Positions 57,984-64,000 of a stretch of DNA of 64,000 bases are shown here, one piece after another (within the stretch, counting starts at the first letter, position 1; each line of letters starts with the position of its first letter). The stretch comes from an uncultured Alphaproteobacteria bacterium. GTDB lineage: Bacteria > Pseudomonadota > Alphaproteobacteria > Micropepsales > Micropepsaceae. The notes below the pieces were generated by a model. It had not been told where the DNA came from. It made no database searches and saw only the letters and a list, made by a program, of their open reading frames with translations. The DNA is taken from positions 1-64,000 of the forward strand of contig CAIOYY010000088.1 in NCBI GenBank assembly GCA_903862715.1, written 5' to 3'. The position numbers and the translations under genes were made by a program.

Positions 57984-58034
57984 ATGAAACCGGGACAAAC
58001 CGTAGTAAACGCGCTGTACAAGGGCAGGGACTAA
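57984..58034 (+). CDS. Candidate ilvB leader peptide
   Basis: A 16-codon frame, MKPGQTVVNALYKGRD, starts with ATG behind AGGA (spacing 8). It contains tandem Val codons (GTA GTA) and one Leu codon. Its stop codon TAA is the loop of the hairpin AGGGAC-TAA-GTCCCT, and a terminator follows 30 bp later. That is the layout of ribosome-mediated attenuation by valine/leucine supply, although the regulatory codon run is short. Confidence 0.6.
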   Translation: MKPGQTVVNALYKGRD

Positions 58035-58048: not shown

Positions 58049-58064
58049 GTGCGGCAGCTTTCCG

Positions 58065-58090
58065 GGGGCGTGATGCGCCCCTTTTGTTTT
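58065..58090 (+). terminator. Attenuator-type terminator before ilvB
   Basis: GGGGCG-TGATG-CGCCCC forms a 6-bp stem followed by TTTTGTTTT. It lies after the candidate leader peptide and 63 bp before ilvB, so it would terminate transcription before the structural genes. Confidence 0.75.
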
Positions 58091-61082: not shown

Positions 61083-62165
<1,083 letters not shown>

Positions 62166-62227: not shown

Positions 62228-62406
62228 CTTGCGCCCTCTTGGCAAATCGGGGTAAATGCTGGGGATAAGTTGGAAAAGCGCTCGTTTTACGGGCGGTTAC
62301 CGCTATTCGTGGCGTCTCACGATCGGATCCGGAGCGGACGGAATTGGACATGGTTGGTACGCAGACAGACATGGGGTTTGAGGGGGCATCCGCCTTCCGG
62401 ACATCC

Positions 62407-62478
62407 ATGCGCGTTGCGGCCGTCATCGCCCGTCCGCGAGCTTCGCGCTGCGCGCTACTTCTCCTTAGCTGCCCTTAA
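62407..62478 (+). CDS. leuL: leuA leader peptide with four consecutive Leu codons
   Basis: A 23-residue frame begins MRVAAVIARPRASRC and ends ALLLLSCP; the Leu run is CTA CTT CTC CTT. An in-frame ATG at 62371 would make it 35 residues. Both starts have weak Shine-Dalgarno sequences. The stop codon lies inside one arm of a hairpin (62472-62518). Upstream, 62228-62370 shows no gene I can support. Leu-codon runs before leuA are the hallmark of leucine-responsive attenuation. Confidence 0.7.
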   Translation: MRVAAVIARPRASRCALLLLSCP

Positions 62479-62518
62479 GCGCCGTCATGTTCCTCTAGGG
62501 GGAACGGGCTCTTAAGGG
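62472..62518 (+). promoter_or_regulatory. leu leader RNA hairpin
   Basis: CCCTTAAG at 62472-62479 pairs with CTTAAGGG at 62511-62518; an inner stem GTTCC/GGAAC lies between. The left arm includes the leader stop codon, so ribosome position would control folding. No T-run follows, so termination, if any, is not classic intrinsic termination. Confidence 0.55.
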
Positions 62519-62576
62519 AACAGACGAGAGGAGAAACAGAGCACGCGCGAATAGCGCGAACCGAAGGATACGAGTC

Positions 62577-64000
62577 ATGACGACGGACATGAAACAACAC
62601 GCAAACACCAACGAACCGCACGACCGCGTGCGCATCTTCGACACCACGCTGCGCGATGGCGAACAATCGCCCGGCGCGGCGATGAATCTCGAACAGAAAC
62701 TGGAAGTCGCGGCGCTGCTCGACGAAATGGGCGTCGATATCATCGAAGCCGGATTTCCGATTGCCTCGAATGGCGACTTCGAAGCCGTGAACGAAATTTC
62801 CCGGCGCACGAAGAACGCCATCGTATGCGGCTTGGCGCGCGCGGGCTTCAAGGATATCGACCGCGCGGGCGAAGCATTGCGACCCGCCCGGCGCGGCCGC
62901 ATTCATACCTTTCTGTCCACCAGTCCCGTGCATATGAAGCACAAGCTGCAGATGGAACCGTCAGCTGTGCTGGAGGCAATCTCCGCTTCCGTAGCCCGCG
63001 CCCGTCAGCACACGGACGATGTGGAGTGGAGCGCGGAAGACGCGACACGCACTGTGCCGGATTTCCTGTGCAAAGCGGTCGAATTGGCTATCAAAGCCGG
63101 CGCCACAACGATCAATATTCCCGACACGGTGGGCTATGCCACGCCGCAGGAATATTTCGAATTGATGAAAATGCTGCACGAACGCGTACCCGGCGCCGAG
63201 AAGGTCATTTTCTCGACGCATTGCCACAACGATCTGGGTTTGGCAGTGGCGAATTCGCTGGCGGGGGTCCTGGGCGGCGCGCGTCAGATCGAATGCACGA
63301 TCAACGGAATCGGCGAACGTGCGGGCAATGCCGCTGTCGAGGAAATCGTCATGGCGCTGCGCGTGCGCAAGGATCGCATGCCGTTCACCACCGGTGTGAA
63401 GACCGAAATGATCGCGCGCGCGTCCAAGCTCGTTTCCAACGTCACGGGCTTTCCGGTGCAATACAACAAGGCCATCGTCGGCAAGAATGCTTTTGCGCAT
63501 GAATCCGGCATTCATCAGGACGGCATGCTGAAGAATGTCGAAACCTATGAGATCATGCGTCCCGAAGATGTTGGCGTGAAGGAAACCGCGCTGGTGCTCG
63601 GCAAACTGTCGGGCCGCCATGCGTTCCGGGACAAATTGCAAACGCTGGGTTACGAGCTGGGCGACAACGCCTTGCAGGACGCATTTCGCCGTTTCAAGGA
63701 TCTGGCCGACAAAAAGAAACATATCTTCGATGGAGACATTGTCGCGATCGTCGATGATAGTGTCATGCGTGATCATGAAACGATCCAGGTCGAATCGCTG
63801 AAAGTCATCTCCGGCAAGGGCCTGAAACCGTCGGCGGAGCTGACACTGTCGGTCGATGGAGAGATGCGCGCCTGTCTGGCGACGGGCGACGGACCGGTGG
63901 ATGCCATCTTCAATGCCATCCATCAGCTTTACCCGCATGAGGCCGCGCTGCAATTGTTCCAGGTCAGCGCCGTCACCGAAGGTACCGATGCCCAGGCCGA
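62577..64000 (+). CDS. leuA: 2-isopropylmalate synthase LeuA (3' end outside window)
   Basis: First committed step of leucine synthesis, condensing acetyl-CoA with 2-oxoisovalerate. The visible 474 residues start MTTDMKQHANTNEPHDRVRI, followed by the catalytic barrel with FDTTLRDGEQSPGAAMN, EAGFPIASNGDF, STHCHNDLGLAVANSLAG and NGIGERAGNAAVEEIVMAL, then the linker and the start of the regulatory allosteric domain. AAGGA lies 8 nt before the ATG; a second ATG four codons in is possible. The frame runs off the window end. Confidence 0.95.
   Translation, partial: MTTDMKQHANTNEPHDRVRIFDTTLRDGEQSPGAAMNLEQKLEVAALLDEMGVDIIEAGFPIASNGDFEAVNEISRRTKNAIVCGLARAGFKDIDRAGEALRPARRGRIHTFLSTSPVHMKHKLQMEPSAVLEAISASVARARQHTDDVEWSAEDATRTVPDFLCKAVELAIKAGATTINIPDTVGYATPQEYFELMKMLHERVPGAEKVIFSTHCHNDLGLAVANSLAGVLGGARQIECTINGIGERAGNAAVEEIVMALRVRKDRMPFTTGVKTEMIARASKLVSNVTGFPVQYNKAIVGKNAFAHESGIHQDGMLKNVETYEIMRPEDVGVKETALVLGKLSGRHAFRDKLQTLGYELGDNALQDAFRRFKDLADKKKHIFDGDIVAIVDDSVMRDHETIQVESLKVISGKGLKPSAELTLSVDGEMRACLATGDGPVDAIFNAIHQLYPHEAALQLFQVSAVTEGTDAQA

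Follow-up and report, generated by a model that had tools for sequence, protein, structure and literature searches.

The leuA gene of an alphaproteobacterial draft genome (2.6 Mb, 89% complete) is preceded by a leader that we interpret, with a probability of about 0.6, as a leucine-sensing translational attenuator conserved in the Alphaproteobacteria, with leucyl-tRNA as the sensed signal. Ribosomes would translate a leader open reading frame (ORF) that ends in a run of Leu codons. With leucyl-tRNA plentiful, they would get to a stop codon inside a hairpin and then leave; the leader freed of the ribosome would fold, with the hairpin acting as a clamp, and the Leu-codon segment would pair with purine-rich sequence ahead of leuA. 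For many species this partner would be the Shine-Dalgarno (SD) sequence itself, so that leuA translation would be lowered. With leucyl-tRNA scarce, the ribosome would stall on the Leu codons, cover the segment and leave the ribosome-binding region of leuA accessible; the hairpin in front of this ribosome could stay folded. The element would place a core biosynthetic gene under a cis-regulatory RNA that is widespread in a class with Caulobacter, Bradyrhizobium and the Acetobacteraceae among its members. Its mechanism would be terminator-free, and the leucine-sensing codons may double as the strand masking the region where leuA starts.

The window, by which we mean the whole 64,000-nucleotide stretch of DNA analyzed here, has the gene order ilvB, ilvH, ilvC (61149 to 62165), leader and leuA, with the enzymes confirmed by family models. 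The leuA gene (2-isopropylmalate synthase) runs on the plus strand, as do the leader features described below, from 62577 to 63998 and past the window end, and it matched NCBIfam models NF002087 (786.8 bits) and TIGR00973 (665.2 bits) above their cut-offs. The leader ORF called from the sequence (62350 to 62478; 42 codons, MVGTQTDMGFEGASAFRTSMRVAAVIARPRASRCALLLLSCP and a stop) has in-frame ATGs at 62371 and 62407 as alternative starts. The original prediction had placed a leucine leader peptide at 62371; the leader itself is supported, and its start is doubtful because leaders in the window's family are mostly about 40 to 42 codons long, a length that ATG 62350 fits better. The ORF ends GCG CTA CTT CTC CTT AGC TGC CCT TAA (peptide ending ALLLLSCP). 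Its four Leu codons (62455 to 62466; CTA at 62455, CTT at 62458, CTC at 62461 and CTT at 62464), the proposed sensor and outer-helix strand, are as had been described.

A hairpin follows at 62472 to 62518 (minimum free energy [MFE], −26.2 kcal/mol; z = −3.9; 0 of 200 shuffles equally stable), and the leader stop codon (TAA, 62476 to 62478) lies within its 5′ arm, as predicted. The absence of an intrinsic terminator also held: no T-run follows this hairpin (AACAGACGAG), a plus-strand scan of the leader-to-leuA interval found no terminator, and across relatives terminator-like structures occurred between hairpin and leuA in 3 of 178 loci (0.7 expected). Further downstream, a purine tract of the AGAGGAGA type (62528 to 62535) is predicted to form 8 bp with Leu-codon segment 62459 to 62466, enclosing the hairpin in an outer helix. 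Folding predicts that opening of the outer helix lets a small hairpin (CGCGC/GCGCG, 62544 to 62558) form, and a downstream alignment of family members has similar small hairpins. An SD-like GAAGGA (62563 to 62568) precedes leuA. Upstream of ilvB, a 16-codon ORF (MKPGQTVVNALYKGRD and a stop, 57984 to 58034) precedes a GC-rich hairpin that runs into T-rich sequence (58064 to 58082; terminator scan positive), so that the ilvB upstream region, unlike that of leuA, resembles a conventional attenuator.

The same leader ending and hairpin were found upstream of leuA in relatives. Two covariance models made in this analysis, R1 and R2 (the latter built from 105 diverse sequences), matched 86 and 129 of 385 alphaproteobacterial genomes, respectively, almost always in a single copy per genome. 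Of the 385 genomes, 193 carry an orthologous leuA, and by list comparison 120 of these 193 have an R2 match; the filters were strict, and about 27 of 40 R1-negative leuA upstream regions still show the element by eye. The gene directly downstream was leuA in 180 of 183 gathered loci, the available sequence of the other 3 ending 30 to 180 nt downstream of the element. In a phylum draw of 299 genomes, R1 matched 47, all from Alphaproteobacteria; 171 genomes that carry leuA but belong to other classes gave no match. Among the named carriers are Caulobacter vibrioides, Bradyrhizobium, Tardiphaga, Methylocystis, Roseibium, Asaia, Phenylobacterium and Novosphingobium, and the leader of L181 (Micropepsaceae, from a contig titled Rhizomicrobium) closely resembles those of the window's family. 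Within the class, no such leader was seen in the leuA upstream regions L240, L243, L247, L248, L250, L251, L253, L255, L258, L262, L264, L268 and L269. A different hairpin (CACTTCCT/AGGAAGTG) precedes leuA in L026/L240. In three loci (L059, at 1501 to 1579, L072 and L188), the same leader and hairpin stand before another leuA type, the L059 enzyme being PRK03739/TIGR00970-like and about 29% identical to the window's LeuA, which suggests that the leader was kept while the enzyme behind it was replaced. The element seems to be absent from Rfam and from the open literature that we searched: Rfam gave no family match, only chance snoRNA matches below the gathering score, and we found no paper on a leuA leader in Alphaproteobacteria, an earlier description elsewhere being possible (e.g., Vitreschak et al. 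2004).

The hairpin covaries. In a 28-sequence alignment (A2), it forms an 11-bp helix in which 97.1% of cells are paired and 8 pairs show double changes; in the 105-sequence alignment, it forms a 10-bp helix in which 96.0% of cells are paired and 8 of the 10 pairs show double changes. The latter helix has 86 double-change cells versus 22.6 after shuffling and performed better than every slid register. Furthermore, the pairs at the stop codon alternate between G-C and A-U, so that swaps among TGA, TAG and TAA are compensated on the 3′ arm, a pattern that shows selection on RNA structure across stop-codon identity. The leader ending and hairpin are beyond chance: well over 100 genomes share them, and the changes between genomes are compensatory.

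Codon use at the leader end, counted over 183 loci with the last Leu codon numbered 0, points to a translated leader. Codon −2 encodes Leu in 178 of 183 loci (CTT, 103; CTG, 43; CTC, 27; CTA, 5), and acceptance of any wobble base speaks for selection at the amino acid level and hence, we infer, for leader translation. Codon −1 is Leu in 92 loci, Arg (CGA) in 74 and Gly (GGG) in 11, codon 0 is CTT in 176 of 183 with A as the next base in 98%, and Leu is frequent further upstream (28 to 52% at codons −3 to −8). The conservation of the Leu run, by which the original prediction could be judged, thus held in relatives at codons −2 and 0. The residue that follows the last Leu differs among loci (S, I, T, R or M), Pro stands three codons past the last Leu in 167 of 183 loci, and the codon right after the Pro position is a stop in 146 and TGG in 31. 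The SCP tail, which had been called unusual, therefore follows a family rule of x-x-Pro-stop, because those codons make up the 5′ arm of the hairpin. CUUA (62464 to 62467 in the window) is about 97% invariant across the 183 loci, though CUC is synonymous and the next residue is variable. SD pairing explains neither this motif nor the CGA at codon −1. A competing short CUUA:URRG hairpin is pairable in 93% of cells, without covariation, and downstream AAGTC/TAAG, considered as a general CUUA partner, was not enriched.

We compared the Leu segment of each genome with the region upstream of its own leuA in 71 non-redundant genomes, exchanging partners within the same leader type and similar GC content, a design that reduces relatedness without removing it and that takes leuA starts as predicted from sequence. 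Against the 22 nt before the leuA start, the mean longest exact complement was 5.44 nt versus 4.78 nt with swapped partners (z = 4.6, 0 of 500 swaps), and against the whole hairpin-to-start stretch it was 6.10 versus 5.44 nt (z = 5.4, 0 of 500 swaps). Exact matches of at least 7 nt to the SD region were present in 25% of genomes versus 8% after swapping; in the genomes without such a match (about three quarters), pairing is weak or located elsewhere. Leader segments further upstream gave z values of 2.3, 1.1 and 1.6 against the SD region, the value of 2.3 being a weak excess in the segment just upstream (−32 to −8). These results, which are new here, indicate that at the level of primary sequence the Leu segment is complementary to the leuA SD region of its own genome beyond swapped partners.

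Individual loci illustrate the predicted pairing. The SD itself would be paired in L182 (TGCTCCTTA with TAAGGAGCA), L057 (TCCTTCGACT with AGTCGAAGGA) and L055 (GGTCCTTC with GAAGGACC). In the MFE fold of the window, Leu codons 62459 to 62466 pair with purine tract 62528 to 62535 around the hairpin, and helices like this outer helix appear in the family, where duplex energies were computed for 13 members. A relative, L005, has the codons GTT CTC ATC CTT and carries GATGAGAAC in place of AGGAGA, a 9-bp perfect match in which both outer-helix strands changed together (GTTCTCATC with GATGAGAAC). The outer helix was not recovered in the consensus fold of the window's family, because the downstream purine tract misaligns; its support comes from the duplex and swap tests and from the footprint folding described below.

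The distance from the A site to the front edge of the ribosome is usually about 12 to 15 nt. By this distance, a ribosome at Leu codon −2 would just touch the hairpin; at codon 0 it would open the first few pairs, and at the stop codon the whole 5′ arm. When we folded the leaders with a ribosome footprint at these three positions, the first 8 nt of the 5′ arm were 3%, 75% and 100% unpaired, respectively. Leucine limitation would therefore leave the hairpin folded, and no output would follow from that alone. A footprint on the Leu codons raised SD openness by >0.1 in 38 of 79 genomes and lowered it in 11 (P value = 1.4 × 10−4), while for a control footprint 30 nt upstream the counts were 15 up versus 8 down (P value = 0.21). 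A footprint on the leader stop codon also opened the SD (36 up, 8 down), so the models separate only released from resident ribosomes. In the window, the AGGAG at 62529 to 62533 was unpaired with a probability of 0.00 in the free leader, rising to 0.88 when a ribosome occupied the first Leu codon. This tract is not the proximal SD, the leuA start being about 45 nt further downstream; in folds of the full leader, the proximal GAAGGA barely changed (0.50 free, 0.48 stalled). In this genome, AGGAG may serve as a standby site, or the effect may be exerted through the small hairpin predicted at 62544 to 62558 upon opening of the outer helix. On these models, ribosome position may set mutually exclusive leader structures. 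Taken together, the SD complementarity and the opening by footprints support translational attenuation with the Leu codons as both sensor and SD-masking strand, and translation of leuA, one of three regulated steps named in the original prediction, is the one favored by the sequence comparisons and models. We infer that the ribosome stalls, that scarcity of leucyl-tRNA raises leuA expression, and that the output is translation rather than Rho-dependent termination or decay, to which Rho or decay may contribute.

Rho-dependent attenuation is the strongest rival, and we consider it rather unlikely as the main mechanism. With leucine present, the leader ribosome would leave, Rho would load onto the pyrimidine-rich, G-poor leader and transcription would end before leuA; a stalled ribosome and the folded hairpin would shield the RNA. 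The 60 nt of leader before CTTA (C, 0.37; T, 0.25; A, 0.10) and the A/C-rich sequence after the hairpin agree with this, but base composition is weak evidence in GC-rich genomes. That 175 of 178 loci have no intrinsic terminator and that the hairpin-to-start distance is short (median, 57.5 nt) would also suit Rho, which however does not predict the genome-specific complementarity between Leu codons and SD region. The same complementarity is left unexplained if the hairpin and a stalled ribosome guard the leuA message from RNases while free leader RNA is cleaved, an alternative that fits the stability and conservation of a hairpin close to the mRNA 5′ region and that we regard as improbable. 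Ribosome arrest by a regulatory nascent peptide (L-x-L-x-x-P-stop), or programmed frameshifting at CUU-A, could draw on the conserved C terminus and CUUA and on the Pro before the stop in most loci, but both seem highly improbable: the residue after the last Leu varies and TGG replaces the stop in 31 of 183 loci, and the +1 frame is open to leuA in 68 of 159 loci versus 55 of 162 for +2, a small difference. We had considered a +1 shift by analogy with Ty1/prfB sites and rejected it, since the +1 frame is not clearly favored as open to leuA. Classical attenuation with an intrinsic terminator is the least probable reading, even with a terminator-like hairpin followed by GGGGTTTTT (GGGGUUUUU) in the low-GC relative L105 (901 to 969, genome G192), unlike nearly all relatives, and a normal terminator-like hairpin at ilvB in the same window, because terminator-like structures are confined to the 3 of 178 loci noted above and a mean of 2.07 T follows in the 10 nt past the hairpin.

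Translational attenuation by a leucine leader shares features with several known systems. As in leader-peptide attenuators generally, a conserved short ORF containing several codons for the product of the pathway stands upstream of a biosynthetic gene. Leaders of the Escherichia coli leuL or Rfam Leu_leader type place Leu codons before leucine genes together with a competing antiterminator and a U-tract terminator; the leader described here shares the Leu codons and has neither the antiterminator nor the U-tract after the hairpin, nor an Rfam match. In TnaC- and MgtL-type leaders that work with Rho, output is set by ribosome position without an intrinsic terminator. Our element resembles them in being a terminator-less leader dependent on ribosome position, and differs in that the proposed signal is an amino acid biosynthetic product. 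In erm-type translational attenuators, a leader ribosome stalled by an antibiotic frees the downstream SD. The likeness lies in a stalled leader ribosome that frees an SD; here the stall would come from scarce charged tRNA, and the stall codons would themselves be the anti-SD strand.

The closest system in design is the predicted actinobacterial LEU element, in which a Leu leader upstream of leuA, without a terminator, pairs its Leu codons with the leuA SD in a base stem that encloses a conserved pseudoknot (Seliverstov et al. 2005, PMC1262725); its authors preferred a protein ligand, since mutating Leu codons in S. coelicolor had effects that did not fit classical attenuation. The two share a leader ORF with Leu codons upstream of leuA and the absence of a terminator, and a possible counterpart of the LEU base stem has class-wide statistical support here, the partner in the window being the distant AGGAG. 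They differ in that the LEU element has its pseudoknot and is actinobacterial, whereas the leader in the Alphaproteobacteria has a single hairpin that includes the leader stop codon, consensus folding, which is blind to pseudoknots, having given one hairpin only. On the basis of this hairpin and the other phylum, we do not class the alphaproteobacterial element as a LEU member. Somewhat more tentatively than the main reading, and at slightly less than even odds, we propose that a leuA translational attenuator with the Leu codons as sensor and anti-Shine-Dalgarno strand is ancestral in the Alphaproteobacteria, that its design arose independently of the actinobacterial LEU element or long before the two split, and that it has been kept even behind an unrelated leuA type.
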